The notes under the pieces were generated by a model. That model did no database searches. It was not told the origin of the DNA and saw only the letters and a program-made list of their open reading frames with translations. A stretch of DNA of 34,388 nt from IMG/VR virus record IMGVR_UViG_3300025118_005059, positions 1 through 34,388 of that record. One strand, given 5' to 3'. The stretch comes from a virus. Every line of letters starts with the position of its first letter. The stretch's first letter is position 1. Positions 11,973 to 34,388 of this stretch are shown here, piece after piece. The translations under genes were made by a program, and so were the position numbers.

Positions 11973-12019
11973 ATCTTTAACTATTTAATGGATTTATGTC
12001 AATTATAAACTAAAATATT

Positions 12020-12877
12020 ATGGTGGATATATTGCTATCATGTTTGACGTTCAAGGAATATACAGGTTCCGAGATTTATTTTTATGAAATAGCCACCGCA
12101 CTACATAAAGCAGGTCATAATGTACATCTCTTCTCACCTATTCATGGGTCACCTCTCACTGATAAAATAGACAATGTATTTTTCGCAGATAGATATAGTG
12201 TAGATAACATGCAATACGATATAGTTATATTTTCACATGGAAATGTTATATGGGATTACATAAAAAATGTTAAGGCAAAAAAATTTATAAATGTTGTTCA
12301 TTCAGAAGTACTAGAATTAGAAGAACCACTTATTAATTCAAAAGTAGATTTATATGTAGGCATAAGACCATCAATTGTTGAGTTTATTAAAAGTAAAATA
12401 ACTCCTACACACCAGTTTCAACTGGACTTCTGTCAAGTTGAATTAATATATAATCCATTTGATTTCGATAGATTTAATTCTAAAAAATGTAAGAAGAATA
12501 ATAAAAAAGATAAAACAGTCCTCTTTCCAGGAAGCTTGGATTATTTGCGATATAAACCGTTAAGATATTTACTTGATCTCTCCGAAAAACAAAATTTTAA
12601 AGTTATACACGTTGGTAGAAACGACTATTCTATAGTACACCCTAATTTTATTACCTATGAGCCCGCTTGGAACGTGGAAAAATATTATAAAAAATGTGAT
12701 ATTGTATCAGGTATATTTTTAGGCCGAACTTCTATAGAGGGACTATTATGCGGTAAAAAGATATTACAATTTGATGTTGATAATAAAGGTAATATAAAAC
12801 AAGTATATTGGCATACTGAAGATAATTTACAAAAATTTAATAAACATACAATAGCAAAACAACTTCTTTGTGAATAA
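12020..12877 (+). CDS. GT4-like glycosyltransferase (GT-B fold)
   Basis: This is the first gene of the sugar cluster. The 285-residue protein has a GT-B layout: the N-terminal TGSEIYFYEIATALHKAGHNV (about 15-35) is typical of GT4 acceptor domains; YNPFD (144-148) precedes the linker; VLFPGSLDYLRYKPL starts the donor domain; GIFLGRTSIEGLLCGK (231-246) is a degenerate form of the EX7E nucleotide-sugar motif. It is shorter than usual GT4 enzymes (350-400). Donor and acceptor are unknown. A TATAAA box ends 10 nt before the ATG. The next gene overlaps by 8 nt. Confidence 0.78.
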   Translation: MVDILLSCLTFKEYTGSEIYFYEIATALHKAGHNVHLFSPIHGSPLTDKIDNVFFADRYSVDNMQYDIVIFSHGNVIWDYIKNVKAKKFINVVHSEVLELEEPLINSKVDLYVGIRPSIVEFIKSKITPTHQFQLDFCQVELIYNPFDFDRFNSKKCKKNNKKDKTVLFPGSLDYLRYKPLRYLLDLSEKQNFKVIHVGRNDYSIVHPNFITYEPAWNVEKYYKKCDIVSGIFLGRTSIEGLLCGKKILQFDVDNKGNIKQVYWHTEDNLQKFNKHTIAKQLLCE

Positions 12878-14630
12878 GAAAATACATATAGTTTTAAGTT
12901 ACAAAAATAGAAAGACTCAATTTCTTTATACATTAAAAAAATTAGATGAATTTAATTTTTTAGATAAGTCCACAAATAGATTAACAGTCATAGTTGTTGA
13001 TGACGGTAGTGATGATGATAATAGATTAGAGGATATTATAGATAATTATAATTTTAAAATAACTTTATTTAGAATAGAGCCTGAACAAAAAACTTGGGAA
13101 AATTATACTTGTGTACAATATAATATAGGATTTCGCTTAATTGACGGTAACGATGATGATCTTGTAATTTTACAAAACCCTGAATGTGTACATAAAGGTA
13201 ATATTTTAAAATATTCTTTAGATAATGTAACTCATAAAGATTATCTTGTATATAGCTGTATTAACTTATTTGAAAAGCAAACTCAAAGTATACTGACAAC
13301 AGATACTTGTCAGCTTGGCCCGGACCACGTCGGTCCTGAAGGATCGCGAGGTATTCTAGTAGGCGGTATTGACTGGTATGTTCATCCAAAGTGGAATCCT
13401 AGATATTTTCATTTTTGCAGTTGTATGACGTATAAAAATTTAAAAAAACTTAACGGTTTTGATATGAGATTTATATACGGTCATGCATTTGATGATGATG
13501 AACTTGCTTTAAGAATTGAGAGGTTAGGTTTAAATAGAAAAATTATTTTAGATCCGTATGTTTGTCATTTATATCATAAAAGGTACGATCCAACCCCAGA
13601 TGATGAAAAACGGTGGTCTAGTCTGTTTTATAATAGAGACTTATTTGAAGGTATAAAAAAATCAGATACTGAAACTTATGCAGTTAATAAAAATACTTTA
13701 TTTGGCCTACCTGACGACATTACTACTATATTTTCCCAAGATTGGGGGTTTGATAAGATTCCTAATCTTGAATTAGTTACAACAAAAATACCAAAAATTG
13801 CTAATTTTTATTGGGGTGGAGATAAGATGTCTTTTTTGCGCTATTTGACTCTTTTTTCTTTTGTGAAATATAATCCAGAATGGGAAGTTCGGTTATATGT
13901 ACCACGTAAACCTTCGAATAGTACAGGTAATGATGGTATTCATTCTTGGAAAGATCAAGTTGACGATAAAGATTACCTTAAACTCTTACCGAAGGAAGTA
14001 AAAATAATTAAAGCGGATTTTGCAAACAGCTTCATAGGAGATGACGCACCTGAAGCACATAGATCTGATCTGTTAGGGTGGCAAATATTATCTACCACAG
14101 GAGGTCTTTGGTGTGATATGGATATTTTATTTTGTAAACCAGTCATTCCAATTGATGGCTCTCAGGTATTTTATTCTCACGATACATTTATATGTTTTGA
14201 CGACAGAACTCAGTCAATACCTATAGGATTCTTTTTCTCTAGTCCAAAAAATCAAGCTTTTAAAACGGTATTACAGGCAAGTAAGAGACTTTATGATAAA
14301 AACGATTATCAATGTATAGGTACTAAAGCCATATCTTCTGTATTTGATAGTTTTGAAGACTGTAAGCGAAAATTCCCTGGCTTAAACATTGCAGCTATAA
14401 ATCACGACGTCGTGTATAGGTATGATTTTTTAAATTTAGATAAATTATATAAAGAAAATAATTTCTCTCACATACTTCATAGTCAGGAGAGTGTAGGAAT
14501 TCACTGGTACGGAGGACATCCACTAAGCCAGGAGTTTAATAATAAAATTAATATAGATAATTATGATAAATTAGAACTTAATACTATTACTGCAGCAATA
14601 AAATATTTGAATATAAAAGAAAATGAGTAA
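12870..14630 (+). CDS. two-domain glycosyltransferase: GT2-type plus GT32-type
   Basis: A 586-residue fusion. Residues 1-~260 are GT2-like: IVVDDGSDD (41-49), then NGFDMRFIYGHAFDDDELALRIE (195-217), as in galactosyl-transferase-like GT2 domains. Residues ~305-586 resemble the DXD sugar-binding GT32 family: KIANFYWGG, then AHRSDLLGWQILSTTGGLWCDMDILF with D416-M-D418 as the metal-binding DXD, and a C-terminal GIHWYGGHPLS. The protein could therefore add two consecutive sugars. It starts at GTG (12870), overlapping the previous stop by 8 nt. A GC-rich patch at 13312-13362 encodes QLGPDHVGPEGSRG between the GT2 motifs. Confidence 0.8.
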   Translation: MNKKIHIVLSYKNRKTQFLYTLKKLDEFNFLDKSTNRLTVIVVDDGSDDDNRLEDIIDNYNFKITLFRIEPEQKTWENYTCVQYNIGFRLIDGNDDDLVILQNPECVHKGNILKYSLDNVTHKDYLVYSCINLFEKQTQSILTTDTCQLGPDHVGPEGSRGILVGGIDWYVHPKWNPRYFHFCSCMTYKNLKKLNGFDMRFIYGHAFDDDELALRIERLGLNRKIILDPYVCHLYHKRYDPTPDDEKRWSSLFYNRDLFEGIKKSDTETYAVNKNTLFGLPDDITTIFSQDWGFDKIPNLELVTTKIPKIANFYWGGDKMSFLRYLTLFSFVKYNPEWEVRLYVPRKPSNSTGNDGIHSWKDQVDDKDYLKLLPKEVKIIKADFANSFIGDDAPEAHRSDLLGWQILSTTGGLWCDMDILFCKPVIPIDGSQVFYSHDTFICFDDRTQSIPIGFFFSSPKNQAFKTVLQASKRLYDKNDYQCIGTKAISSVFDSFEDCKRKFPGLNIAAINHDVVYRYDFLNLDKLYKENNFSHILHSQESVGIHWYGGHPLSQEFNNKINIDNYDKLELNTITAAIKYLNIKENE

Positions 14631-15693
14631 AAAAACTATTATAACGGTTACTGGTATCAGGCCAGATTTTATAAGAATGTCTGAAATATTTAGATGTTTA
14701 GATGAAGATAAAGATATTAATCATATCTTAATACATACCGGTCAACATTATGATAAATTATTATCAGATGTTTTTTTTGATGATCTAGATATAAGACAAC
14801 CGGATTATAATTTAGAAGTAGGTTCCTCCGATAAAAAGCATTATCATCAACAAGCTGAGCTCGGCCCAAAAATGATTGAAACTATAGAAAAAAATAACTT
14901 AAACCCGGATATAATATTATTCTTAGGTGATAGTAATTCTATTCTCGCATCAGTACCTCTTAAAAAAGAAGGTTATAAAATTGGTCATATCGAAGCCGCG
15001 ATGAGAAGTTATGATGAAAGGATGTTAGAAGAGATTAATCGTAAAGTTTGTGACCATGTCAGTGATATATTATTTGTATATCATGATAATTATAAGCAAA
15101 AAGCTTTAAGAGAAGGAATTCCTGAGAATAGAATACACGTAATAGGAAATACAATAGTTGAGCCGCTGCTTAAATTAGCAGAAAATACTCCTAAGAGTAA
15201 CAAGCATATTCTTCTTGATATTCACCGCCCGGAGAATTTTAAATATAGAGATAGAATGGAAAAAATATTAAACTATGCTAATTCTTGTATACGTGAATTT
15301 CAAATACCAGTTAAAATGCTTTTATTTAATAGAACAATAAAAGCAATTGAGGATTATAAGTTAAATTTAGGAGATATAGAATTAATACCGCTTATGGGAT
15401 ATAAGGATTTTATTAAGTTTCAACAAGAATGTAAATTTATAATAAGTGACAGCGGAACTGCACAAGAAGAGCCAGCTTTATTACATATTCCTGTAGTTGT
15501 ACCTAGAGATGTCACCGAGCGACCTGAATCGGTAGAAAATAATTGTAGCTTTATGTTATCGCTAGCGGCACAGGATCATTTAACTACTTCTTTTAAATGG
15601 CTTTCTTCAAAAAAACCGAATTCAATAGAGTGGCTAGGAGACGGTACTACTAGTCATCGTGTATTAACGGTACTAAAGACAGCTTTAAGATGA
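14623..15693 (+). CDS. UDP-N-acetylhexosamine 2-epimerase (WecB/CapG-like)
   Basis: It should interconvert C2 epimers of a UDP-N-acetylhexosamine. The 356 residues align with WecB-type enzymes: GIRPD (11-15), TGQHYD (39-44), GDSNS (102-106), HIEAAMRS (122-129), EEINRKVCDH (136-145), HRPEN (201-205) and SDSGTAQEE (275-283). Candidates for the WecB catalytic residues are D103, E124, E136/E137 and H201. GIRPDFIRMS replaces the usual GTRPEAIKM. A 4,6-dehydratase-like SDR and an RmlD-like reductase follow within 2 kb, so the CapG/WbjD role (last step to UDP-L-FucNAc) or WbvD role (UDP-L-RhaNAc to L-QuiNAc) is as likely as UDP-ManNAc formation. Confidence 0.9.
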   Translation: MSKKTIITVTGIRPDFIRMSEIFRCLDEDKDINHILIHTGQHYDKLLSDVFFDDLDIRQPDYNLEVGSSDKKHYHQQAELGPKMIETIEKNNLNPDIILFLGDSNSILASVPLKKEGYKIGHIEAAMRSYDERMLEEINRKVCDHVSDILFVYHDNYKQKALREGIPENRIHVIGNTIVEPLLKLAENTPKSNKHILLDIHRPENFKYRDRMEKILNYANSCIREFQIPVKMLLFNRTIKAIEDYKLNLGDIELIPLMGYKDFIKFQQECKFIISDSGTAQEEPALLHIPVVVPRDVTERPESVENNCSFMLSLAAQDHLTTSFKWLSSKKPNSIEWLGDGTTSHRVLTVLKTALR

Positions 15694-16451
15694 TAGATAT
15701 TAAAGTAATAGTCCCGGGGTATAATTGTGAACCCTGGATTCACAAAACAATTAATTCTATAAAAAACCAGACTTTTACAAATTTTAAATGTATAGTTATT
15801 GATGATACATCAACTGATAATACCTTTAAAGCAGCTGAGCAAACTATTAATAGTGATAATCGATTTAAACTTGTACGTAATACAGAGAATAATGGTGCAT
15901 TAAAAAATATTTATGACGGTATAAAAATAATTAGCGAGGACGATGAAGATGTTATTATTACAGTTGATGGAGATGACTGGGTTTATGATGAAAATGTTTT
16001 TGAAAAGGTTAGTGCTACTTATTTAGATAATAATTGTCTTATTACATATGGAAGCTTTATTGAATATCCTTCTAATATTACACACCCGTATTATCTAACA
16101 TCATATGATGAAAATGTAATTCAAAATAATTTATTTAGAGATACCGGCTGGAAGGCCTCTCATTTAAGAACATTTAAAGCAAAATTATGGAATAGTATTA
16201 AGTATGAAGATTTTATTGATCCAGAAACCGGTAAATTTTACGAAACGGCCTGGGATTTAGCTTTTATGATACCAATGTTAGAAATGGCAGGAGATAGAAG
16301 TAAGCATATAGATGATATACTTTATGTATATAATAAGGAAAATCCCGCAAGTGATATGTATATAAAAACACAATTGCAATTAAGCACTGCAGACAAGATT
16401 AGAAAAAAACCAAGATATATACTTCGTAGTTTTTTCGAGGAGGTAATATAA
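15690..16451 (+). CDS. GT2 family glycosyltransferase
   Basis: This is a GT-A inverting glycosyltransferase of 253 residues. The N-terminal fold is clear: IKVIVPGYN, then VIDDTSTDNT (36-45) and TVDGDDWVYDENV (91-103), carrying the nucleotide-binding and metal-binding aspartates. The C-terminal third (AWDLAFMIPMLEMAG) fits the acceptor side. No membrane segment is visible, so it works in the cytosol or peripherally. Donor unknown. The start overlaps the epimerase stop by 4 nt. The next gene follows after 9 nt with a TATAAT box in the gap. Confidence 0.88.
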   Translation: MIDIKVIVPGYNCEPWIHKTINSIKNQTFTNFKCIVIDDTSTDNTFKAAEQTINSDNRFKLVRNTENNGALKNIYDGIKIISEDDEDVIITVDGDDWVYDENVFEKVSATYLDNNCLITYGSFIEYPSNITHPYYLTSYDENVIQNNLFRDTGWKASHLRTFKAKLWNSIKYEDFIDPETGKFYETAWDLAFMIPMLEMAGDRSKHIDDILYVYNKENPASDMYIKTQLQLSTADKIRKKPRYILRSFFEEVI

Positions 16452-16460
16452 TATATTAAT

Positions 16461-17381
16461 ATGGAGAAGATATTTATAACAGGTGGCGCAGGGTACTTAG
16501 GTCGTCATTTAGTTGAACATTATTATAACGATAATGAAATTACAGTTTTTTCAAGAGATGAGGCAAAACACGTTTACTTAAAAAAGAAATTTCCTAAAAT
16601 AAATTGCATTATAGGAGATATTCGTAATTTTGATTTATTAAAAAGAGCATCTAAAGATCATACTATAGGTATTTTTCCAGCGTCAATAAAACATATTGAA
16701 TCCGTTGATCAAAACGTAGAAGAGGGTGTTAGTATTCTGGTGAATGGAGCTATTAATTCAAGGAGAATTTCTGAAGAAAATGAATTTAAAGCTGCTTGTT
16801 TTATTTCATCAGATAAATCACGGGCAGCTACTACGTTGTACGGTGCAATGAAATTTATAGCAGGAGAATCATTTATCGTTGACGCAGAACAGTCCAACGT
16901 TAAATTATCTACTGCTATCTATGGTAATGTTTTAAATTCGACTGGTAGCATCATTCCGTTAATATGGGATTCTATAAAAAATAAGTATTCATTAACTTTA
17001 TATTCCGAACAAATGACTCGGTATATGATTGATATACAACAAGCTGTTACGTTAGTAACGTTAGCACTTAAAACAACTGGACATAATGTAATACCAAATT
17101 TACAAGCATTTAGAGTAAAGGATTTATTTGAAATATATGCTGATAAATTTGGATTAAAATACACATTAGGTAAGCCACGTATATCAGAAAAGTTACATGA
17201 AATGATGTGCGGTAGCGAAGAGGTATCTCGAACTTATTATAATTCTGAGGAAGATACTTTTTATATGCATTATAAAGATATAGCTAAATCCCCAATAAAG
17301 AACGAAATGACGAGTGATAAAGTAACAGTATCAAAAGAAGATTTATTAAAATGTCTAGAAAATTATGATTATTTTAAATAA
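16461..17381 (+). CDS. UDP-GlcNAc 4,6-dehydratase-like SDR (CapE/WbjB/PseB type)
   Basis: This is an extended SDR that would make a UDP-4-keto-6-deoxyhexosamine. The 306 residues show the NAD-binding TGGAGYLG (7-14), GDIRNFDLL (52-60, typical of FlaA1/CapE proteins), ASIKHIES (74-81), SSDKS (116-120), YGAMK (127-131, the Y-x3-K catalytic pair), TAIYGNVLNSTGSIIPL and MTRYMIDIQQAV (substrate-side motif). This pattern separates it from GalE-type epimerases. With the reductase and cupin directly downstream and the 2-epimerase upstream it forms a module like capE-capF-capG (UDP-L-FucNAc) or wbvB-wbvR-wbvD. A TATAAT box (16447-16452) ends 8 nt before the ATG. Confidence 0.85.
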   Translation: MEKIFITGGAGYLGRHLVEHYYNDNEITVFSRDEAKHVYLKKKFPKINCIIGDIRNFDLLKRASKDHTIGIFPASIKHIESVDQNVEEGVSILVNGAINSRRISEENEFKAACFISSDKSRAATTLYGAMKFIAGESFIVDAEQSNVKLSTAIYGNVLNSTGSIIPLIWDSIKNKYSLTLYSEQMTRYMIDIQQAVTLVTLALKTTGHNVIPNLQAFRVKDLFEIYADKFGLKYTLGKPRISEKLHEMMCGSEEVSRTYYNSEEDTFYMHYKDIAKSPIKNEMTSDKVTVSKEDLLKCLENYDYFK

Positions 17382-17384
17382 ACT

Positions 17385-18230
17385 ATGAAAGTATATGTTT
17401 TAGGCTCTAATGGAATGTTAGGTAAATATGTTTCCACATATTTATCTAAACTATATTCAGTTATTAATATTACTCGAGATAAGCTGGATGTAGAATCCGC
17501 AACGGAAGATGAGATTAAGATTTTTTTTAAAAGGCGCTGGTGGGACGAACAAGAATTCCCAGGAATTAGTATTGAAAAGGGAGATGTTATTGTAAATTGT
17601 ATTGGTTTAATAAAACCTTTAATCGATAGTTCAAATACAGCAGCAGCTATTAAAATTAATTCTTTGTTTCCTTATATACTCTCTGAAATTGGTGAGCGCT
17701 ATTCCGCTAATGTTATACATATTACTACCGATTGTGTGTGGTCGGGTAAAGAAGGAAATTATAACGAAGATTCTCCTCATGATGCTCTTGATGTATATGG
17801 TAAAACAAAGTCATTAGGTGAACCTGGTAATTGTACAGTCATTCGAACTTCAATTATAGGAGAAGAAGTCGATAATAATCGATCTTTAGTAGAATGGATA
17901 AGATCTAGAAAAGACAAAGATGCAAATGGTTTTTTAAATCATATATGGAATGGTGTTACATGCTTAGAGCTTGCTAAATGTATAGGACAGATTATTATAC
18001 ACAATAGTTATTGGAAAGGTATTAGACATATTTTTTCCCCGACTAGTGTAACTAAAGCTATATTATTAAAATTAATTAACGACATTTATAATTTTAATAT
18101 TTCTATTAATAATATAGACGCGCCAGTTGCCTGCGATAGGAGTCTAAGTACTAAGTTTGATAGAGTAATTGATTATGATATATTAGAGCTAGAAGATCAA
18201 ATAAAGGAAATGAAAGATTTTAAATTATGA
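17385..18230 (+). CDS. RmlD/CapF-like NAD(P)H-dependent sugar reductase
   Basis: This is an SDR reductase for a nucleotide-linked 4-keto-6-deoxy sugar. The 281 residues contain GSNGMLG (7-13), VNCIGLIKP (70-78), HITTDCVWSG (112-121), YGKTK (138-142, Y-x3-K) and the late IWNGVTCLELAK stretch typical of RmlD-like reductases. In RmlD the keto sugar is reduced to dTDP-L-rhamnose; the neighbouring CapE-like and WecB-like genes point instead to a UDP-HexNAc substrate, as for WbjC/CapF or WbvR. The insertion RRWWDEQEFPGISIEKGD (50-67) is unusual in this family. It is followed by a separate cupin gene (4-nt ATGA overlap), whereas CapF carries its cupin as a fused domain. Confidence 0.82.
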   Translation: MKVYVLGSNGMLGKYVSTYLSKLYSVINITRDKLDVESATEDEIKIFFKRRWWDEQEFPGISIEKGDVIVNCIGLIKPLIDSSNTAAAIKINSLFPYILSEIGERYSANVIHITTDCVWSGKEGNYNEDSPHDALDVYGKTKSLGEPGNCTVIRTSIIGEEVDNNRSLVEWIRSRKDKDANGFLNHIWNGVTCLELAKCIGQIIIHNSYWKGIRHIFSPTSVTKAILLKLINDIYNFNISINNIDAPVACDRSLSTKFDRVIDYDILELEDQIKEMKDFKL

Positions 18231-18640
18231 AGGAAATATTTTCTAAAGTAGAAGAAGGTAAATTGTTACATCGTATAACTTGTAAAGATGATGTAACCCC
18301 GGGAAGAACTGATTTAGCTAGTGAAAAAGAATTTTTACAATGTGCTGCATTAAATTTACCATACGGTAAAACGTTCAGACCTCATAAACATCTTTATAAG
18401 GACGGTGAAGATAAAGCTATCGCTCAAGAGTCTTGGGTAATTATAAAAGGAAAAGCTAAAATTGTTATGTATGACTTAGATGATCAAGTTATCGCAGAGG
18501 AAACATTAAATGAAGGAGATATGTCTATGACATTTCACGGTGGTCATACATATGAAGTCTTAGAGGAGGGTACTATAGTATATGAATTTAAAACCGGACC
18601 TTATTATGGTCAAAAAATAGATAAGGTTTGGTTAGATTAA
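18227..18640 (+). CDS. cupin-fold protein, likely sugar-pathway
   Basis: A 137-residue single-domain cupin. Motif 1 supplies H53 and H55 (RPHKH), E68 and G75; motif 2 has H104 and H107 (TFHGGHTYEVL), so a metal site is plausible. It overlaps the RmlD-like reductase by 4 nt. In CapF a cupin domain with metal is fused C-terminal to the reductase domain; here the two are split. Alternatives are a 3,5-epimerase-like or 3,4-ketoisomerase-like sugar cupin (FdtA type) or a WbuC-like protein. Assignment to the sugar pathway is from context. Confidence 0.72.
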   Translation: MKEIFSKVEEGKLLHRITCKDDVTPGRTDLASEKEFLQCAALNLPYGKTFRPHKHLYKDGEDKAIAQESWVIIKGKAKIVMYDLDDQVIAEETLNEGDMSMTFHGGHTYEVLEEGTIVYEFKTGPYYGQKIDKVWLD

Positions 18641-18643
18641 TCA

Positions 18644-19258
18644 ATGGAGCAACAATTTCCAAAGGAGTGGGTTGATATTGTAAGTGAACGATATTTTAAA
18701 TATATTGCTGAGAATCGTCCTGTTAATTATAATTATTTTCGATCCCCTGGTGTATATGAACTTCGATATGAAAGAGATGGTTTCACTGAAAAAGAGATAG
18801 CGTATTATAATGAAATATTACATCCGCCTAATATTGCTATTTTAGAGCATATCGTTGATCACTATGAACAATATGAAGGTTTGCAGTTTTTAGACAATGG
18901 TTGCGGGTTCGGTGTGTTATCGGTTTTTTTAAAAAAAATAGGAATTAGTTGCTACAATTACGACACTTTAGATCAAATTGGATTTCTACCTACTTTTGAA
19001 CCAGTAATAACAGAGAATGTACCACTGGATGTTGATGTTATTGTATCTAGCGGTATGTATATTAATAATTTAGACTATCTTAAATTATCTGATTTAAAAT
19101 ATTTAATGATCGATAAAGATTGGAAAGCCCGGTCAACAACCTTCTCAGACACTGGGCATAAAATTACCTTTAAAAACATTGTACCTGATTTAATTAAAAA
19201 ATTTAATTTAAAACGACTTGAAAAAGTAAGAGATACAATTATAATTTATGGAAAATGA
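18644..19258 (+). CDS. class I SAM-dependent methyltransferase-like protein
   Basis: The 204-residue protein has the Rossmann nucleotide-binding motif QFLDNGCGFGVLSVFLKKIG (81-100), with D84 and G86xGxG, followed by SCYNYDTLD for the acidic loop. The later motif (DVIVSSGMYINNL) is weaker. The N-terminal 80 residues are mostly helical and aromatic. The likely role is O- or N-methylation of a sugar, inferred from its place inside the cluster. It begins 3 nt after the cupin and overlaps the next gene by 4 nt. Confidence 0.68.
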   Translation: MEQQFPKEWVDIVSERYFKYIAENRPVNYNYFRSPGVYELRYERDGFTEKEIAYYNEILHPPNIAILEHIVDHYEQYEGLQFLDNGCGFGVLSVFLKKIGISCYNYDTLDQIGFLPTFEPVITENVPLDVDVIVSSGMYINNLDYLKLSDLKYLMIDKDWKARSTTFSDTGHKITFKNIVPDLIKKFNLKRLEKVRDTIIIYGK

Positions 19259-19845
19259 ATTTTGATGTAGTTAAGCGGTTTGAAAATGAAGTGGCTGAGT
19301 TTTTTGGTGCACCATATGGAGTTTCTATAGACTGCTGTACACATGGACTTGAGTTATGTCTTAGACATACAAAGGCTACACTAATAACAGTCCCAAAACG
19401 TACGTATATATCAGTACCTTTTTTAGCTGATAAGCTTAATATACAGTTAAAATGGAAAGATGAGAAATGGAGTGATTTTTATTACTTAACTAATAATATT
19501 ATAGATGCAGCAGTGTTGTGGAAACGTAATAGTTATATTACTGGTACATATATGTGTATTAGTTTTCAATGGCAAAAGCATTTAAGCTTAGGGAGAGGTG
19601 GTATTATTTTAACAGATGATAAAGCAGCGTCTGAGCAACTTAAAAAAATGTCATATGATGGTAGAGTGCCTGATGTTCTGTGGCGAGAGCAAAATATTAG
19701 TACAATAGGATATCATTATTATATGACACCAGAAATTGCATTGAAAGGAGTAGATAGATTGGAGAACGCTATTAATACTACACCTAGGCAATGGGCAATA
19801 TCTGATTACCCGGATTTAACAGAAATGGATATTTTTAAAAAATGA
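19255..19845 (+). CDS. half-size DegT/DnrJ/EryC1-like aminotransferase
   Basis: Sugar aminotransferases of this family add an amino group to a keto sugar with PLP and have about 370-400 residues. This protein has only 196, but keeps the core: GAPYGVSIDCCTHGLEL (18-34, cofactor-phosphate region), NIIDAAVLWKR (81-91, with D84 as the pyridine-nitrogen Asp) and SFQWQKHLSLGRGGIILTDD (103-122) with K108 as the PLP lysine. The C-terminal domain is missing, and loops in the large domain are short. The stop is followed immediately by gmd (4-nt overlap), and no frameshifted remnant is visible, so this looks like a compact enzyme, not a broken gene. Confidence 0.75.
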   Translation: MNFDVVKRFENEVAEFFGAPYGVSIDCCTHGLELCLRHTKATLITVPKRTYISVPFLADKLNIQLKWKDEKWSDFYYLTNNIIDAAVLWKRNSYITGTYMCISFQWQKHLSLGRGGIILTDDKAASEQLKKMSYDGRVPDVLWREQNISTIGYHYYMTPEIALKGVDRLENAINTTPRQWAISDYPDLTEMDIFKK

Positions 19846-22809: not shown

Positions 22810-22812
22810 TAT

Positions 22813-25126: not shown

Positions 25127-25162
25127 TGGTTTCCAGAAAATATGTAGTAAATATTATTAACG

Positions 25163-26828: not shown

Positions 26829-27985
26829 GAATAGGTATATTATTTTACGGTCAGCCACGTTTTTTCGGTCTTACAAAAAAGTATATTAAGCAGGAGTTTG
26901 ACTTCCCTGGCCATGAAACTGATTATTTTGCTCACTTCTGGGAACAAGTCGGTTATACACCGAGTGGAGAAGAACATGACACGAATGTTCCCGATGTAAG
27001 AAAGATACTCAGTAGAGAGTTTGACGCTAAATCATATAAAATACAGAATTATGATAAACTAGATGAAATAATAGAAGCTTATAAAGTTATTTTTCAACAA
27101 GTAAAGGAAGAAACTAATAATAATGTTGCAGTACCTGATGACGATATAGAATTAAGATATAAATTTGGTCAACACTATAGTCTATCTAAGTGTTATGAGT
27201 ATTTAGAAGAATATGAACAAAAGAATAATTTTAAATATGATATAATTATAAAGGCGAGAACTGATATAGTGTATTCATTACCGTCGTTATATCCTGACGA
27301 AGAAGAATATAGGTTATTTAAAATTCATGCTTATTTAAATATTAATAAAGATGTACCTACTATACATTGTAATGGTATAAGAATTACTACTTTAGAGGTA
27401 CCAGATGATAATTCACCTCTTATATGGGAACAACAAGGTATATACAGTTATTATAATCAAGAAGTATCGTTTCAATATGAACATTCTGTAAAAATGCCAT
27501 TTACATATAATTATAATAGAAGATTGGCGATAAATGATTGGTGTTTAATCGCTAATAGGGAAGCAGCATCTCTTATGTATAATGGTTGGTTTACTACGTA
27601 TCTTAATGCTCTAGGTAATGATATACGTATGTGTAATTGCTTGCGTTTAAAAAATGAGCCTGTTATTCCGGTACGAGGTATTGAAGAGGATGAATTAAAA
27701 CATAGACATAAATTGAAATTTATTTCTCAATCAGAGCATAGTATGCAAGGATATCTAGCTTATGTAAATAATATAAATGCGGTTAAGTTGAAACATAGAA
27801 GAGATTATAGATTATTAAAACAGGATGAAATAAAACAAGAGGTGTCTGTTGATGGTAAGTTTTGGGCAGTCAATGACGCTGAAATGGTTGATGGAATAAC
27901 TAAAGTATTTAACTTACGAAATCCTTCATTTTATGATCTTAGAAAAACAGAAAGATATAAGAAATTTTTAGATATTAAAACATGA
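26825..27985 (+). CDS. YGQPR-type putative glycosyltransferase, copy 1
   Basis: I cannot assign this 386-residue protein to a named GT family. It begins MRIGILFYGQPRFF, has DYFAHFW (33-39), a QHYSLSKCYEYL helix and KYDIIIKARTDIVY (137-150), where RTD after a beta strand looks like a nucleotide-sugar or metal site of a GT-A-like fold. The genes at 27982 and 30329 share the same order of motifs. Later segments (LAINDWCLIANREAASLMYNGWF) look like acceptor-side helices. Transferase activity is inferred from neighbours and motif layout. It overlaps the GT25 gene by 4 nt. Confidence 0.62.
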   Translation: MRIGILFYGQPRFFGLTKKYIKQEFDFPGHETDYFAHFWEQVGYTPSGEEHDTNVPDVRKILSREFDAKSYKIQNYDKLDEIIEAYKVIFQQVKEETNNNVAVPDDDIELRYKFGQHYSLSKCYEYLEEYEQKNNFKYDIIIKARTDIVYSLPSLYPDEEEYRLFKIHAYLNINKDVPTIHCNGIRITTLEVPDDNSPLIWEQQGIYSYYNQEVSFQYEHSVKMPFTYNYNRRLAINDWCLIANREAASLMYNGWFTTYLNALGNDIRMCNCLRLKNEPVIPVRGIEEDELKHRHKLKFISQSEHSMQGYLAYVNNINAVKLKHRRDYRLLKQDEIKQEVSVDGKFWAVNDAEMVDGITKVFNLRNPSFYDLRKTERYKKFLDIKT

Positions 27986-29058
27986 AAAAGATACGCGTTG
28001 CTTTATGTATATCGGGTGAAATGAGAAGATGGCCTAATTGCCATAATTCAGTAATGAATCTATCTACTCCGTATAGTATTAAATTTTTGAACAGGCATAA
28101 TAATGCCCCGCCCAATGAGCCGCCTCCGGAGGAAATAGATTATGAGCTACATACATTTATACACACTTGGGATCAAATTACATATTCAAAAAAACAGACA
28201 ACGTGGGAGCTTAATCTAAGAAAAGATAAATTAGATCATAAAGAAATGATCGATAAGATAAAACCTAAAGCTATTCAAATAGAAAGTAAAGACGCATTAG
28301 ATGTATATATAGAGTTATTTAAAAAAAATAAAGACTTTAGAGAATGTGAAGATATTGAAAAGAAAATTAAATTTACAAATTATACTTGCTTATCTCAATT
28401 TTATAGTATGAGGAAATGTCATGATTTACGTCGAAAATATCAAGAAGAACATAATGTAGAATATGACATTGTTATTAGAACGAGGTCTGACATATTAATT
28501 AAAGAATATAAGAAACAGTCCGTATTTCATGTTTTACATAAATTAGCTGTTTTTGATGATAACAAAAAAAAGCATGTATGTACTGGTAAAACACCCCTTC
28601 TATATTGTCCTTGGATTTATGGAGATCACAGATTACATACAATAATGGAATATGCATTAATGTTAGGCCGCCCGGCGACATTCGATAAAATTTTTAAGGG
28701 CTTCCCAGAAAAATTACCAAAAACAGCTGGGTTCGGTAATACGTCTCATGGTGTACTTTATGATCACATACATAATGACCATACATATATAAGAGCTCCT
28801 ATCCCATTGCATTATTCCTTAGATCATCATCCTGTTGAAATGGTAGAGGATCCTTGTAATCAAGATATTGTCACAGGTCTTCCAATTGAGGAGGGAGCAA
28901 AAGCTCCTAAGCTTGAAGTTGTTGCTGAGGGAGACGAAACTGACATATCTATAGGAGAGGAGAATGCTATTAAAGATAAAAATGATATTAGCGAAAAGGA
29001 TATACCTACTCCTAAGAAAGGGGTAGCAGTTAAAGGTATGACCGATGGAGGTTCTTAA
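27982..29058 (+). CDS. YGQPR-type putative glycosyltransferase, copy 2, with acidic tail
   Basis: The 358-residue relative of the preceding gene reads VALCISGEMRRW (6-17) where the others have [18 protein letters not shown] (55-64), QFYSMRKCHDLRRKY (139-153) and EYDIVIRTRSDI (160-171). An extra GC-rich insert, NNAPPNEPPPEEID (40-53), is absent from the other copies. The last ~70 residues are a low-complexity acidic Glu/Asp/Ile/Lys tail, probably disordered. It is the last plus-strand gene of the string and overlaps the convergent methyltransferase gene by 4 nt. Confidence 0.58.
   Translation: MKKIRVALCISGEMRRWPNCHNSVMNLSTPYSIKFLNRHNNAPPNEPPPEEIDYELHTFIHTWDQITYSKKQTTWELNLRKDKLDHKEMIDKIKPKAIQIESKDALDVYIELFKKNKDFRECEDIEKKIKFTNYTCLSQFYSMRKCHDLRRKYQEEHNVEYDIVIRTRSDILIKEYKKQSVFHVLHKLAVFDDNKKKHVCTGKTPLLYCPWIYGDHRLHTIMEYALMLGRPATFDKIFKGFPEKLPKTAGFGNTSHGVLYDHIHNDHTYIRAPIPLHYSLDHHPVEMVEDPCNQDIVTGLPIEEGAKAPKLEVVAEGDETDISIGEENAIKDKNDISEKDIPTPKKGVAVKGMTDGGS
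28123..28132. repeat. 10-bp perfect palindrome CCTCCGGAGG
   Basis: It lies in the Pro/Glu-rich insert of the YGQPR-type gene, inside a GC-rich patch of about 28 nt (28106-28133). It resembles the inverted repeat at 7093-7105. Confidence 0.5.
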
Positions 29059-29627
29059 GAGAGAATAACTAAAATACCACCATTTACTATTGATACGTTA
29101 TCACTAACTCTATTAAATACTTTTTTTATCCAAAAATGTTTTTTATGCTCTTGAATTAAATGTAGTTCACCTACTTTAACTCCTGGTCGGATTTCATGAT
29201 ATCTTCTCGCGTGACTTGGACCACCATTAGTTGTATGAAACATGCATTTACGAGTTACTCTGACCATTTCATCTATAGTTCTGTCTAAAAAATCAGGATG
29301 TATATGTTCTAAAAAATCAAATGAAGTTGTTAAATCTACAGATTTATCTTCTAGCGGTATATCATGACTACACCCTTTTAAAAAATTAATATTTTTGTTT
29401 AAAAAATCTGACTTAGGGTCAATAGATATATCTAAACCATGTACTTCGTTACATAATCCCTCTATTGCCCAATTACAAAATTGCCCTTGACCTGTACCAA
29501 CATCTAATACAGAATTAATATTTAATAATTTTAAAAAAGGTATATGCTTCCTACCATGAAAACTACCACCATATCCCTGAGTGTTTAAGTAATCATATGT
29601 TTCTTTAATTTGCTCTAAGTTCTTCAT
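29055..29627 (-). CDS. class I SAM-dependent methyltransferase
   Basis: The 190-residue protein has motif I SVLDVGTGQGQF (39-50), EVHGLDIS (61-68, motif II acidic residue), and DLTTSFDFLEH followed by DEMVRVTRK, typical of Methyltransf_11. The C-terminal HTTNGGPSHARRYHEIRPG region is less usual. The substrate is unknown; sugar or lipid methylation is suggested by neighbours. The ATG at 29627 gives MKNLEQIKETYDYLN; an upstream ATG at 29654 would overlap the preceding gene by 50 nt. It is the last gene of the minus-strand arm. Confidence 0.82.
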   Translation of the reverse strand: MKNLEQIKETYDYLNTQGYGGSFHGRKHIPFLKLLNINSVLDVGTGQGQFCNWAIEGLCNEVHGLDISIDPKSDFLNKNINFLKGCSHDIPLEDKSVDLTTSFDFLEHIHPDFLDRTIDEMVRVTRKCMFHTTNGGPSHARRYHEIRPGVKVGELHLIQEHKKHFWIKKVFNRVSDNVSIVNGGILVILS

Positions 29628-30327
29628 GGATATATTCTTTTTTAACATTATCACACCCTATATGTATTAACGGAAAATTAATATATGTAGTAGGGACAAG
29701 TTCGTTGTTTATGATATATGTCATGGCTGTTTCTTCTCTTATAAAATGATCGTCCTTTTGCCATAAAGTATATATTTTATCGTATGCAAATACATCAGTT
29801 AAATTTGCTTTAAAATCTTTACATATAAAAATCAACCCAGCAGCAAATCTACCAGGTATTTCTCTATTTAAATACTTTTCAGGTATAACTACTGGATCGG
29901 CTGTTTTTATTTCCTCTTGACGCATATACATATAAAACGCTTTATTATAATCTTCAAATTTAAACCTATCCTTATGTCTTACAATAACATCACAATCAAA
30001 ATATAACATTTTATCATAGTCACTTTTATAGAATTCATGAATGAGATAAAATTTTGTATTCCATGCCTTTAATCTTTGTAATTCCGATGCATATTTTTCG
30101 TGTTTAATACATTTATATTTGTTTATTTCTTTATCATTATAAAATTGCTTAATAGATATAAACATATCTTCTATTTTATCAGGAATTTTGGTTATTAACT
30201 TGAAATCAGCATTCTTATATTCAGCCCATTTTTTTAAATCCTCTATTACTGGGGTTAAGTTTTCTTGTATTATATCATCTTGTGGCAGATACGAACATAA
30301 ACAATAAACTATATTTCTCTTCTTCAC
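29605..30327 (-). CDS. GT8-like glycosyltransferase with DCD motif
   Basis: A 240-residue GT-A-type protein with KMLYFDCDVIVRHKD (106-120), where D111-C-D113 is the metal-binding DXD, and GRFAAGLIFICKDF downstream, as in GT8-like enzymes where the acceptor loop follows. A C-terminal LVPTTYINFPLIHIGC strand closes the fold. The chosen start is GTG at 30327 (MKKRNIVYCL), 1 nt after the upstream stop; an ATG at 30360 would overlap the upstream gene by 32 nt and add [11 protein letters not shown]. Donor unknown. Confidence 0.72.
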   Translation of the reverse strand: MKKRNIVYCLCSYLPQDDIIQENLTPVIEDLKKWAEYKNADFKLITKIPDKIEDMFISIKQFYNDKEINKYKCIKHEKYASELQRLKAWNTKFYLIHEFYKSDYDKMLYFDCDVIVRHKDRFKFEDYNKAFYMYMRQEEIKTADPVVIPEKYLNREIPGRFAAGLIFICKDFKANLTDVFAYDKIYTLWQKDDHFIREETAMTYIINNELVPTTYINFPLIHIGCDNVKKEYIHEELRAN

Positions 30328-30328
30328 G

Positions 30329-31660
30329 TTATTCGGCAACCTCCATAGCGCGCGATCCAATTATGTTTGAATATTGTTTCTTTAAACTTTTGTCAGTATC
30401 AGTTAGTACTCTAATATGGGGCCTATTTAATATAAATTCTTTTGTAAATTTATTAGCAATTTTCATTAATCTCTCTGGTATAACCATTGTCTCTAATGAG
30501 TCACATCCTAATTCCTCTGCATTTATACGATTTAATCCCAAGGTCTCTCCACAGATAATTTCTCCAGCGGCCCAGTTTATATCTATACCATCTTTTTTGA
30601 GAAATATTCTAGATTTATCAATCAAAGCTTTTATAGTTTCAAGATATTGATCTATAGATAATAACATATCTTCACCTGATCCTACCATATACCAATCCTT
30701 CATGTGTAAATATTGAGTTTTGGGATTATACATATGAGTGTCATTGGCTTTAAAGAGATTGTTTTCATAGTTAAAATTTTCATCAGCACCTGTATACTGA
30801 AAGACGCCTTCTTTTTTTGCATATATTTTATTTTCTACACATAACCAACTCTGGTAATTTTTTACATGTATAGGTTGATGATCCGGCTCTGCGTTGCACT
30901 GTTCCTTTTCAGTTCGCCCATCAGAGAATGTACGAGCCATGTCGTTTGTAAGATTAATTTCTTTAGCTACATCCTTTGCCCCTTCCCAAATTTGAAGATC
31001 TCCAAATTTACAGAAAATTCCTTTCCGTTTTTCATATAATTTGCTATAGAATAATTTTTTATCATATTCATAAAGTCTATTTTCTGTATACAAATCAGGA
31101 GTAATAAACAACAAATCAGTTCTAATTCTAAAAATATAGTCATAATCTTCTTCTATTAAATTTGCTCCTAGCTGTAATGATACAAATTGACCTAAATAGT
31201 ATCTTAAATTCTCTGGCCTAGTAATTTCAAAAATACTCTTTTCAAAGAACTTTGTATATTTATCTTCAGCTAAAAGAGGTATATCAGCAATAGAACTAAT
31301 ATGTTGCGGCTCAGAGTAAGTATGAATGTTTCCAGGCCCAGAAAATTTCGTTGTTCTATCATAATAGAGCTTTAATTTGTTTTTATTGGCTTCTACGATT
31401 TTATATATCTCTTCACAGGCCTGGGTTAAAGGCTCATAATTAGTAAAGGAATGTTTTTTTGGTTTATATGTAGAGACTATTTTTTCTTTATCCTCATCTG
31501 TTAAACTATATTCTGGATCGTCACTATTATATGCTATTTTATCCCAAAAATGAAAATAGTAATCTGTCGTACTATCTTTAAATGTAGTTTCCTGCATAAT
31601 ACTTTTCCAGCTTGATTCCCAGAACCGTGGTTGCCCGTATAATAATACTGCTAATTTCAT
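30329..31660 (-). CDS. YGQPR-type putative glycosyltransferase, copy 3
   Basis: This is the longest member (443 residues) of the family seen at 26825 and 27982. It begins [14 protein letters not shown], has [12 protein letters not shown] (33-44) and [13 protein letters not shown] (173-185), with a long helical insert between. The RTD position matches the other copies. The ATG at 31660 overlaps the upstream stop as ATGA; a TTG 18 nt further upstream is unlikely. It lies on the opposite strand from its relatives, so the duplication has spread across the convergent junction. Confidence 0.62.
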
Positions 31661-32262
31661 GTGTTTACTATATACCAAGACGTTGGGCTATTATGTCTCT
31701 TTAATTTCTTTTGATTACTTTCAACATCAATATGCACGACTAAATTTTCCGCCGCTACAAACTCATCTACAGCAAGTTGGACACCACGGTACTGTGGTGG
31801 AAATACCTTTAGGCGTGGATGGGATGGCGATGGATAGAGGAGATTCGCTAACCAAATGTCTTCATTTATACTGTAATCATGCCCACAAAACAACCCTCCT
31901 TTTCTCATTTTCGGCCACCATGCGTTAATATCCTCCTTTACTGCTTCATAAGAATGACCTGCATCAATAAAACAAAAATCTAAACTTTCATTTGATATTT
32001 CTTTCGCCGCCTCAATAGACGGTTTGTGTATAACCTTACATCTATCTTTGTATATTTTTAATCTCTTTCGCGTTTCATCCTGTTTTTCCGGGTACTTCCT
32101 CCAAGCATCTACTAAAAGTAGCATTTTACCATTCCATGTTTTTAGTATACGGTGAGCGTGTCTCCCCCTACTAACACCTATTTCAGCGCCAGTTCCGATT
32201 AAACCATTTTCATTTAAATATAGCGGTATTTGATCTCTACCGGTAATGTCTGTTATCTTCAT
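31657..32262 (-). CDS. class I SAM methyltransferase (Methyltransf_24-like)
   Basis: The 201-residue protein shows [16 protein letters not shown] (25-40, motif I), LLLVDAW (48-54), [17 protein letters not shown] (95-111) and GHDY (127-130), a pattern typical of Methyltransf_24 enzymes found in phage and bacterial glycan clusters. DAGHSYE usually contributes a catalytic or metal site. The start overlaps the upstream radical SAM stop by one base (TAATG) and the stop overlaps the next gene by 4 nt, so the three genes are coupled. The target is probably a sugar hydroxyl (inference). Confidence 0.86.
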
Positions 32263-33314
32263 TAATCAATTATAAAATCAGTCAAATTTCCCCAATCATG
32301 TTTATGATGATGATAGTCTGCATTTAATATCTCTAAAAACTCTTGGTGTTCCGGGTGTCTAGTGTCAAAAATATTATGCTCATTGAATTCTTTTTCGTTC
32401 ATGTGACCCCAATTGAATATTCTCGAAGTGTAAGACCCGAAATCATGTGCCTGTGCTATTTGTATAAATTCAGGTATACTTTTATAATTATTTCTCTGTA
32501 CACACATATCTAATCGTATACTTGTTAAACCTAAAGAACCGATAAAGTGAAGGTTCTTTTGTAAACGATCCCAATTTCCTCCAACTCTTACTTTATCATA
32601 ATGCTCTTTTATACCACCATCAAGACTAATAATAGCACTTACAGGAAGGCTATGTATAGTTTCTAACTGATTCCATCGTGCTTCGTCCCACAATACACCG
32701 TTTGTTTGAAAATTAATTGTAATTAGAGGGTTCTTCTTAGGGTCAATTTTTTTAAGTAGTTCAAAGAATGATGGTGAACCGAACGGATCACCTGATCCAG
32801 TTATATTAAGGTTTACTGAATGAGGTTTACTATGAATCATGCGAAGTAGTCGCTTATTGATCATTAGTGTTGTTTTATATTTCTCAGGATTACTTTTAAG
32901 AGTATATTGAATTAGGTTTTTTCTACAGCTAGGACATCTCAGATTACAAGACTTATCATAACACAAATTAATAGTTTCAGGAGGATCAGCTACCTCTAAT
33001 TCATATTCAAGAATAAATTTTAATTTATCCCCATGTTTACCATCCATTATATCTTGTCGTGTAGGTAATTGCTTATTTTGTATCATAGGACATTCCGTTT
33101 TATTACACATACAAAAACTTCCATCTAAGATACTTCTACGGAACGCTCTACTCTTCTTACTATTCCATTCTTCGTAGAAATCTAAAGTAGGAGTTAAGTC
33201 TCCTATTCTATTATGGTTAACCCATCGCGGGCAGCAATTATATAATCCCTTTTCTTGGATTTCTAAAAAAGTCCATGGGTGGTCACAAAACCTAGTTGCA
33301 AGATCATCCTTCAT
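32262..33314 (-). CDS. radical SAM protein with N-terminal SPASM-like cysteine domain
   Basis: The 350-residue protein has the [4Fe-4S] SAM motif SCNLRCPSC (122-130, CX3CX2C), a GSGDPFGSP loop in place of GGEP, and NFQTNGVLW. It is likely a radical SAM enzyme modifying a peptide or sugar. Unusually the cysteine-rich region comes first: C10, C27, C28, C68, C70 and C75, with the SPASM-like [18 protein letters not shown] between. SPASM domains normally follow the radical SAM barrel; the C-terminus here has no cysteines. It is the first gene of the minus-strand arm, 18 bp from the divergent start at 33333. Confidence 0.84.
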
Positions 33315-33332
33315 GTATAATTATTTACAATT

Positions 33333-33701
33333 ATGGATATTTATTTCAATGGAGTTGAGTATAAACCAACTGAGAAGGAAGTAGAAGAGATTACTTTTTT
33401 AGGTACTAAGACTTTGCAAGCGAAGGTAAAGCCTCAATTAACAATATTTTGGAATCCGTTAACGTGGGATTGGACTAAGCTAGGCGATAAGGAAGCTTAT
33501 GAAACAAAATATAAGCGCAAGACTCGTGCTGTGTATTTTAAGGATAAGGTCTTTCTTGTTGAAAACTCAAAATTTAAAAAGGGTATTGTAGATGATGAGT
33601 TTGTCGATACCGCCGAACTTCCAATTGGTATTGTTGTGTATTGGGAAGCTGATACTGAGCAATGGCAAATGTTAGGCTATAAAGAAAATCTTTTGAGATA
33701 A
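33333..33701 (+). CDS. hypothetical protein, Trp-rich beta protein
   Basis: I do not recognise this 122-residue protein. It is Lys/Glu/Trp-rich, probably mostly beta strands, with TIFWNPLTWDWTKLG (37-51), RAVYFKDKVFLVE and PIGIVVYWEADTEQW. No signal peptide or membrane segment is seen. Codon use (more CTT, AAG and GTT) and slightly higher GC differ mildly from the sugar genes. It stands between the radical SAM gene and a further glycosyltransferase. A TATAAT box (33316-33321) ends 11 nt before the ATG. Confidence 0.62.
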   Translation: MDIYFNGVEYKPTEKEVEEITFLGTKTLQAKVKPQLTIFWNPLTWDWTKLGDKEAYETKYKRKTRAVYFKDKVFLVENSKFKKGIVDDEFVDTAELPIGIVVYWEADTEQWQMLGYKENLLR

Positions 33702-33715
33702 TATAATATAATATT

Positions 33716-34388
33716 ATGCTTAAACGGTCGGCTTGTTTATATACATCTAACACTGGTGTAGGGTTAACATCCGATGTTTCATTAATTCGAGATTTATTGT
33801 ATGAGGATTATGAAATCGATATTGTATATCAAGAGTTTGGTTTAGATAATAATCAACCTGCGTTTGCAAATTATGATATTGGAATTTTTATACAAGATTT
33901 TGACATCCCGTGGATTGAGAGAAATAAAATAAATGTTTTAATTGCTAATGAAGAATGGATATCTCGTGAAAAATTCCCACAACTCAAACATTTTGATAAG
34001 ATCCTCACTAAATCTACTTTCGCTAAACATTTATTAGCCCCATACAATAATAATATCGTTACTACAGGTTTTTGTACAATAGATAAAAACCTACCTGATG
34101 TTAACCCAACAAAAACCTTCTTCCACGTTGGCGGTAAAAGCTATCAAAAGAACACTGAAGATGTATTAAAATGTTTTAAGCATAAAAAATTAGAGTTAAC
34201 TCTTTTACAGAGTCAAAGAACTGATCTCGAACCGACGTCAAATGTTAATTTTATACAAGAGTATATACCTGATGAGAAAATAAAATTACATTTTAATGAT
34301 CATAGTATACATTTATGTCCGAGTATTTGTGAAGGTTGGGGTCATTACTTATATGAAGGTATGTCAACAGGGGCGTTAATTTACGCTA
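33716..34388 (+). CDS. GT4-like glycosyltransferase, cut by right edge
   Basis: The ORF is open to the window end, giving 224 visible residues. The N-terminus (LKRSACLYTSNTGVGLTSDVSLIRDLL) and FFHVGGKSYQKNTEDVL fit the GT-B fold. HLCPSICEGWGHYLYEGMSTGALIYA near the visible end matches the GT4 donor motif PSxxEGxGxxxxEAMAxG, so the catalytic region is nearly reached and little beyond the C-terminal helices is missing. A TATAAT box (33702-33707) ends 8 nt before the ATG. It shows that the sugar region continues past this window. Confidence 0.8.
   Translation, partial: MLKRSACLYTSNTGVGLTSDVSLIRDLLYEDYEIDIVYQEFGLDNNQPAFANYDIGIFIQDFDIPWIERNKINVLIANEEWISREKFPQLKHFDKILTKSTFAKHLLAPYNNNIVTTGFCTIDKNLPDVNPTKTFFHVGGKSYQKNTEDVLKCFKHKKLELTLLQSQRTDLEPTSNVNFIQEYIPDEKIKLHFNDHSIHLCPSICEGWGHYLYEGMSTGALIYA

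Follow-up and report, generated by a model that had tools for sequence, protein, structure and literature searches.

The virus record IMGVR_UViG_3300025118_005059 (34,388 bases, here analysed whole as the window and abbreviated W in comparisons between islands) carries a cluster of sugar-activating and glycosyltransferase-like genes beside T4-type core genes. Comparison with related sequences indicates that this cluster occupies a fixed locus, bounded by phoH and a radical SAM gene, with variable content. A constant CMP-sugar synthase gene (22813-23508) joins a left and a right cassette. As judged from gene sharing and DNA alignments, the cassettes assort independently of each other, and the breakpoints fall at the 3' ends of genes 22813-23508 and 30329-31678. 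The fixed locus, the constant synthase and the two independently assorting cassettes are what is new here; the soluble phage glycan cluster is itself of a known kind, and no two-cassette phage glycan locus is described in the titles or abstract openings of the literature searched. With respect to function, we give about an even chance to remodelling of the host surface glycan by two exchangeable cassettes arranged around the constant synthase.

Relatives were located via phoH or the radical SAM gene. The islands that have both borders and were examined whole number nine (W, G1, G3, G4, G5, G6, G7, G8 and G9), none of the eight besides W having been located via the synthase. The borders, i.e. 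phoH on one side and the radical SAM gene with the gene at 33333-33701 on the other, are kept across the relatives, and the genes between them change. Reciprocal matches to the window stretch, borders included, number 25/25 in G1, 14/22 in G8, 11/25 in G9, 10/23 in G7, 9/26 in G5 and in G6, and 5/26 in G3; G4, compared with W by cassette only, has no such match at 55% identity or above. The synthase, which has a CTP_transf_3 domain and was aligned in nine rows, is present in all nine whole islands, with 75-84% identity to that of the window in the other eight, depending on method. The 30329-type gene was found in eight of the nine, G3 being the exception (48-91% identity to that of W in the other seven), and the methyltransferase at 31657-32262 has no match in G1. 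A deeper relative, L192, has phoH at 54%, the synthase at 64%, the radical SAM gene at 34% and the 33333-type gene at 38% identity; it was located via the synthase and is thus a biased case. The run of genes that the earlier note had drawn from 12020 to the record end is present, except that the radical SAM gene and 33333-33701 are conserved border, lying outside the variable island.

For the analysis of cassettes, islands were cut at the synthase into a left part of 9.0-11.8 kb, which starts at phoH, and a right part of 4.1-11.8 kb, which ends at the 30329-type gene or, in G3, at the radical SAM gene. Gene sharing, counted at 55% identity, was compared for 120 pairs of 16 loci, several of which are partial. 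At least 60% of left genes and no right genes are common to the pairs G3-G4, G3-G5, G4-L183, G5-L183 and G7-G8, as well as to three further pairs involving G12, which has just 3 left genes. Both parts are shared by W-G1, G3-L183 and G4-G5, and also by G4-G12 and G5-G12, given the partial left part of G12. The reverse pattern is weaker, with G3-G6 sharing no left genes and 5/10 right genes, and G6-L183 no left and 4/8 right. Single linkage tied G9 to another left type only via the 3 left genes of G12; G9, with direct sharing of 2/13, was kept separate.

At the DNA level, G7 and G8, with 11/11 left genes shared at 99% and 0/5 right genes, are 96-98.5% identical up to the final bases of the synthase, except for one extra gene in G8, and are unrelated beyond it as far as the 3' end of the 30329-type gene, where homology returns (92.8%). 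For G5 and L183 (left genes 11/11 at 99%, right 0/8) the corresponding values are 98.2% on the left and 96.3% once homology returns. Between W and G1 the synthase has a synonymous divergence (dS) of 0.83 versus an island median of 0.22, and its inner 100-base windows are 68-87% identical, with neighbours at 88-98%, the pattern that frequent recombination at this gene would produce. Each of the G7 and G8 arrangements is known from a single metagenome contig. All sequences compared are metagenome contigs and the joint is a conserved gene, so that apparent assortment could reflect misassembly at a gene common to co-occurring phages. We consider such an artefact quite improbable: two samples yielded one combination (G4 and G5) and two further samples the other (G3 and L183), and in the three pairs inspected the synthase gene before the unlike neighbours is 93-100% identical in 100-base windows.

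The contents of the two parts differ in kind. All seven sugar-activation genes of the window besides the synthase sit to its left, and the family of GT-A-fold proteins headed by 26825-27985 makes up 30/82 right-part versus 1/111 left-part genes (nine islands, related islands counted separately). If right cassettes are exchangeable without the left, the right transferases should not depend on the rare donors of the left cassette; their donors are probably common ones of the host, or the constant CMP-sugar.

Omega, calculated by the Nei-Gojobori method for W versus G1, is 0.04-0.43 in 23/23 island genes, radical SAM included, with a median of 0.135 (flank genes, n = 15, median 0.084), indicating that every island gene compared is under purifying selection. 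A block that is large and variable might be ballast DNA for headful packaging, as was once considered for cyanophages in passages of PMC3037559; omega values of at most 0.43 throughout contradict this idea, which we find hardly credible. The short DegT gene (19255-19845; 196 residues) is without the C-terminal part, yet has an omega of 0.20; relatives of it at 36-37% identity occur in G7-G9, with full-length DegT also in G7 and G8, and a PDB sequence search with it gave no matches.

The 26 open reading frames (ORFs) within 12020-34387, the last of them truncated at the record end, are laid out as 19 on the plus strand in a nearly gapless run (12020-29058), then five on the minus strand (29055-33314) and then two on the plus strand (Table 1). 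By Pfam, NCBIfam and one structure model they comprise 13 glycosyltransferase-like proteins, eight for sugar activation or modification, three methyltransferase-like proteins (one weak), the radical SAM protein and one of no assigned kind. Denoted by start position, six of the glycosyltransferase-like genes are above the Pfam cut-off (15690, 20798, 23505, 24242, 25163 and 26031), four have weaker, sub-cut-off matches (12020, 12870, 29605 and 33716) and three are assigned by family (26825, 27982 and 30329), of which the modelled member shows a GT-A fold. The sugar enzymes are 14623, 16461, 17385, 18227, 19255, 19842, 21673 and 22813, several of them below curated cut-offs. The core genes left of the island are gp46-, gp47-, gp55-, uvsW- and uvsY-like (PHROGs), together with phoH (Pfam), and the relative G1 encodes portal, major head, tail tube and tail sheath proteins and a DNA polymerase. 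The description in the earlier note of more than 20 sugar genes, with about 13 glycosyltransferase-like products, beside a T4-type core is thus borne out.

Table 1. Genes and borders of the glycan island, positions 11172-34387 of the window.
Feature	Position	Strand	Evidence
phoH, left border of island	11172..11972	-	PF02562 8e-49; 67-93% identity in compared islands where called, 81% in G3 and G4 (tblastn)
Intergenic; candidate early-type promoter TGGATT/TTGATT-N16-TAAAAT serving the plus-strand operon	11973..12019	.	two-model promoter score 10 in window
GT4-like glycosyltransferase	12020..12877	+	PF13439 1.4e-5, sub-cut-off
Two-part glycosyltransferase-like protein	12870..14630	+	PF02709 and PF05704, weak
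UDP-sugar 2-epimerase	14623..15693	+	PF02350 9e-67; WbpI-type and CapG among PDB matches
GT2 glycosyltransferase	15690..16451	+	PF00535 8e-26
UDP-GlcNAc 4,6-dehydratase (5-epimerase type)	16461..17381	+	PF02719 1e-38; best PDB match 4tqg
RmlD-like 4-reductase	17385..18230	+	PF04321 7e-15
WbuC-like cupin	18227..18640	+	TIGR04366 40.7 bits, cut-off 42
Methyltransferase-like protein	18644..19258	+	weak NCBIfam match 4e-4
Short DegT-type aminotransferase, 196 residues	19255..19845	+	PF01041 1e-14
GDP-mannose 4,6-dehydratase	19842..20825	+	PF16363 2e-115; TIGR01472 385 bits, cut-off 415
GT10 glycosyltransferase	20798..21676	+	PF00852 2e-6
Sugar nucleotidyltransferase with C-terminal GHMP-kinase-like part	21673..22809	+	PF01467 3e-11; C-terminus weak fucokinase match 1e-4
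CMP-sugar synthase, constant joint of two cassettes	22813..23508	+	PF02348 6e-19; 75-84% identity in 8 other whole islands
GT25 glycosyltransferase, start of right cassette	23505..24272	+	PF01755 1e-8
GT10 glycosyltransferase	24242..25126	+	PF00852 3e-9
GT25 glycosyltransferase	25163..26089	+	PF01755 5e-10
GT25 glycosyltransferase	26031..26828	+	PF01755 3e-7
GT-A-fold protein (model), head of large phage paralogue family	26825..27985	+	model pLDDT 87; best PDB structural matches are glycosyltransferases
Same GT-A family as 26825-27985	27982..29058	+	row in family alignment
Methyltransferase	29055..29654	-	PF08241 2e-11
GT8-like protein	29605..30360	-	PF01501 7e-4, sub-cut-off
GT-A family as 26825-27985; 3' end bounds right cassette	30329..31678	-	in 8/9 whole islands, not G3; breakpoints
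Methyltransferase	31657..32262	-	PF13578 2e-17; no match in G1
Radical SAM protein, right border	32262..33314	-	PF04055 3e-8; 69-89% in compared islands of lineage
Conserved protein without Pfam match, right border	33333..33701	+	71-98% in compared islands, 38% in L192
GT1-like protein, truncated by record end	33716..34387	+	PF00534 1e-4, sub-cut-off

Three of the sugar genes, 16461, 17385 and 14623, resemble mg534-mg536 of the Megavirinae in kind and order of size, the link for the dehydratase being the only database match (4tqg, i.e. Megavirus Mg534; PMC10117803). Passages of the same paper link the mg534-mg536 set to L-RhaNAc and L-QuiNAc; from the CapE-/CapG-type matches and the WbuC-like cupin, the product in the window could also be UDP-L-FucNAc. 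The donor genes of other islands differ: G3 has an HpcH/HpaI aldolase, a second cytidylyltransferase and a HAD-nucleotidyltransferase fusion, G6 has transketolase-like halves, and a full DegT occurs in G6, G7 and G8. The constant synthase is matched by PseF and KdsB-type models below cut-off and, by sequence, by NeuA structures; we infer that it charges a host-made ulosonic acid. The one record with NeuB is the large phage record of G022 (L195; 203,859 bases), where a synthase homologue of 50% identity lies about 3 kb away.

The model of 26825-27985, built from a 50-row family alignment, indicates a GT-A fold, its best structural match being the protein galactosyltransferase ColGalT1 (Z 12.3 over 224 residues, 4.1 Å); Foldseek TMq values are just 0.23-0.35, and two nucleotidyltransferases are among the 50 matches listed. 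The assignment of 27982 and 30329 is by family membership only. The family has no matches in a PDB sequence search, and Pfam found DUF7796 in 13 of 50 members and otherwise stray single matches. A fold of 30329-31660 from 16 sequences (pLDDT 41) was unusable.

Among 50,697 phage records the window cluster has no megablast match, and the dehydratase 16461 matches four, one of them over at least 80% of its length. The terminase large subunit (TerL) of G1 reaches at best 36.3% identity among the 25 matches listed. A genome-collection scan for the synthase with two short peptide patterns found no relative, so there is no host inference by this route. The dehydratase gave 61 loci, two at 60% or above and the rest near 30%, and proteins with 5-11 predicted membrane spans are encoded within 9 kb of the closest bacterial ones (60-64%); a tree of 24 dehydratases gave no decision on a single viral clade. 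The same dehydratase, at 72-73%, is carried by G013 and G014 (L017 and L027), members of a separate T4-related lineage (TerL 30-31%, capsid 26%; 41-42% G+C), within a gene run of their own.

Membrane spans were predicted by hydropathy (19-residue window, mean at least 1.6), a scan which detects 10- and 11-span proteins in bacterial loci and is thus sensitive to polytopic proteins. It predicted no span in the 24 island ORFs or the 42 called window ORFs, in agreement with the earlier view of nearly all products as cytosolic, and no protein with at least three spans in 192 ORFs of eight islands (four of these ORFs have one span) or among the 146, 162 and 271 called ORFs of three long relatives. 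The gene caller may miss small proteins, as with an 87-residue, one-span ORF at 7875-8138 that was displaced by an antisense ORF. Profile searches found the flippase family PF01943 in 0/3 records and the initiating membrane transferase PF02397 in 0/18, and for a Wzy polymerase or ABC exporter, for which no profile was searched, hydropathy alone gave no polytopic candidate in the window and the three long relatives. The claims that flippase, polymerase, exporter and initiating transferase are missing, and that this is no normal capsule or O-antigen locus, therefore hold, for Wzy and the exporter by hydropathy only. Nor do exporters appear past the right edge, since in G1 (122,091 bases) no protein with at least three spans occurs beyond the island, which is followed by a GT25 gene, a protein without Pfam match and a sulfotransferase and, farther on, by the portal and major head genes. 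The phoH/cluster junction recurs in contigs of five other samples at 90-100% identity (three at 98-100%; G1 and G2 at 90-93%), which rules out a chimera of phage and bacterial DNA.

The further step taken in the earlier note, from missing exporters to a glycan confined to the cytosol, is undercut by cyanophages: proteins with at least three spans number 0/26 in the cluster of S-SM2 (two with one span) and 0/15 in one of P-SSM2, as compared with 0/24 in the window island. The missing flippase does not separate surface from virion glycans, because cyanophage lipopolysaccharide (LPS) clusters are equally soluble and because extending a lipid A-core or a host-flipped unit requires no phage exporter. 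Enzymes of the GT10, GT25, GT8 and CMP-sugar kinds are characteristic of lipooligosaccharide assembly.

If the host surface is remodelled, the left cassette would, during infection and mainly early, make and transfer rare sugars, with 16461, 17385 and 14623 leading to a UDP-acetamido-dideoxy-L-hexose, 19842 to a GDP-6-deoxyhexose, and 22813 loading a host-made ulosonic acid onto CMP; the right-cassette transferases would add more residues. The acceptor would be lipid-linked at the inner face of the host membrane, either lipid A-core or an undecaprenyl oligosaccharide, and with export by the host's own flippase the infected cell surface would be re-coated, such that competing phages lose their receptor. 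Co-infecting phages would recombine homologously at the constant genes, swapping one cassette per event. Surface remodelling against competing phages is a published proposal for such clusters (passages of PMC7029224 and PMC7824862). The several nucleotide-sugar routes of the island agree with the earlier suggestion that many donors imply a complex glycan.

The expression signals lean mildly towards early, host-directed use of the plus-strand operon, as far as promoter type tells. Because TATAAATA alone is too rare for timing, a two-model promoter score was used instead. In this lineage early-type heads have a TTGATT-like and a TATAAT-like box 15-17 bases apart, and precede the DNA polymerase, folE and queD-like genes; the late-type motif, TAAATAA, precedes the tail tube and baseplate wedge genes. 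The head of the plus-strand operon has an early-type score of 10 in W and of 11 in G1, G6, G7, G8 and G9 (6/8 heads tested). The late model scores 7/7 at the radical SAM arm in W and G1 (50/2000 shuffles) and 6/7 in eight others (469/2000 shuffles), only the 7/7 rows carrying weight. Several operon heads of G001 and of the window have the start codon 6-8 bases past the -10-like box; leaderless transcripts would then be common among these phages.

A number of points weigh against early remodelling of the host surface. The early-type score is weaker in G5 (8) and G10 (9), and shuffled background reaches 10 in 86/2000 and 11 in 10/2000 cases; few genes make up the promoter reference set, some heads score with either model, and the head of the major head gene fits neither well. 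The minus-strand arm (29055-33314) bears the late-type motif, so expression is not purely early. A NeuB-type synthase is absent from 11/12 records, so the sugar assigned to the constant enzyme is putative. SAR11 O-chain clusters are reported, in passages of PMC11898729, without fast arms-race turnover with phages. The Megavirinae put a similar three-enzyme set to use for virion fibrils (PMC10117803, in part), so the sugars leave the acceptor undecided.

That precedent, together with the mycobacteriophage virion glycans cited in a passage of PMC12619734, would fit a glycan put on virion proteins in the cytosol, cassette swaps then varying the phage coat. Soluble enzymes, the late-type motif of the right-hand minus arm and the ColGalT1-like model of the main transferase family all accord with this, whereas the early-type promoter of the main operon does not, nor does the lack of a collagen-like repeat (at least four Gly-X-Y, beyond 12 residues) in the >250-residue proteins listed from G1 outside 54-107 kb; on balance we regard the virion as a somewhat unlikely acceptor. 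The Pse/Neu-type synthase matches could also point to another host target, either a flagellin- or pilin-type protein or a polysaccharide exported by host machinery, which would account for the missing exporters; this we rate as unlikely. Hypermodification of DNA with glycans is very unlikely: phage DNA glycosylation exists, and preQ0 genes for a different DNA modification are present here, but the thymidylate synthase/hydroxymethylase family PF00303 is found in 0/6 records, some partial, and to our knowledge 13 transferases far exceed the needs of known DNA glycans. We thus rank a host lipid-linked glycan first as acceptor, the virion second and DNA last; of the three that the earlier note proposed, the lipid-linked precursor stays among the options, DNA falls back and the evidence tips neither way on the virion. 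A broader notion, which we hold to be less likely than not, is that the locus diversifies glycans as such, the synthase serving as recombination joint between donor and transferase cassettes, so that a 'serotype' might be switched half at a time, possibly on the phage's own virion, with no membrane machinery.

Several neighbouring genes lie outside the island. The folE, queE and queD-like genes of the window (5889-6527, 8913-9401 and 9515-10285; queD-like being a sequence reading), with queC in a relative (G001 67549-68253), suggest 7-deazaguanine DNA modification; with dS of 1.0-1.6 for W versus G1, far above other flanks, the first three seem also to have recombined. Two weakly SGNH/GDSL-like genes of the window (6579-7535 and 8145-8861) lie left of the island, and arrays of 8 and 10 similar ORFs in tandem lie left of it in the G003 record (83117-89403, in L126) and the G010 record (31348-39564). 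Sugar genes outside the G001 island (46262-47140, 57060-58058, 58716-59639 and 108943-109605) comprise two short-chain dehydrogenases/reductases (RmlB and RmlD type), a sulfotransferase and an RmlA-like gene, the last label being a sequence reading, as its sole PHROG match carries no function.

How the island varies in content can be seen from its border and joint genes, and the constant enzyme offers a single target for biochemistry. Independent exchange of halves around one constant gene suggests a route by which phages could keep changing a surface sugar. If the host surface is the target, marine phages carry exchangeable serotype-conversion loci; if it is the virion, there are phages with variable glycan coats.

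Among the closest known systems are the large LPS gene clusters of cyanophages, which lie near hli03, with phoH as a second site in P-SSM2 (passages of PMC3037559); P-SSM2, S-SM2 and S-SSM7 are, like the window, T4-like marine myoviruses with such a cluster. The same source voices doubt as to whether these clusters are functional or stuffer DNA; in the present island, selection shows the genes to be in use. The annotations of S-SM2 and parts of P-SSM2 contain 26 and 15 contiguous genes of the window's kinds (GT25, epimerases, nucleotidyltransferases), and phoH, near which one P-SSM2 cluster is reported, adjoins the window island at 11172-11972. The window differs in the distant TerL (G1), in lacking psbA (0/7 records, five of them this lineage) and in its sugar set. 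Of four island genes searched, 26825-27985 alone matches a cyanophage, namely S-SM2, with 27.5% identity and 44% of the query covered; 16461 and 21673 match other phages and 12870 none. The constant synthase and two-cassette layout are features of the window's lineage; cyanophages were not examined for either.

The pelagimyophage host recognition cluster is likewise a hypervariable island; it encodes glycosyltransferases and has been proposed to modify the host O-chain, but it also holds tail fibre genes (passages of PMC7029224); Pfam found no tail fibre family among the island proteins scanned, and CsgG is in 0/7 records (five of this lineage). The Megavirinae (mg534-mg536 and kin) share the 4,6-dehydratase/5-epimerase, 4-reductase and 2-epimerase types, reductase and epimerase being likened by type only, but are giant viruses of eukaryotes with the sugars on virion fibrils (PMC10117803, in part). 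Bacterial O-antigen and capsule loci have fixed borders, a variable centre and rare-sugar operons. The window shares the borders, the centre and the rare-sugar genes with them, and is unlike them in having no flippase or initiating transferase by profile and no polytopic protein by hydropathy. In its core genome, its gene run, its position at phoH and its freedom from polytopic exporters, the window cluster is an LPS/glycan cluster of a marine T4-like phage.

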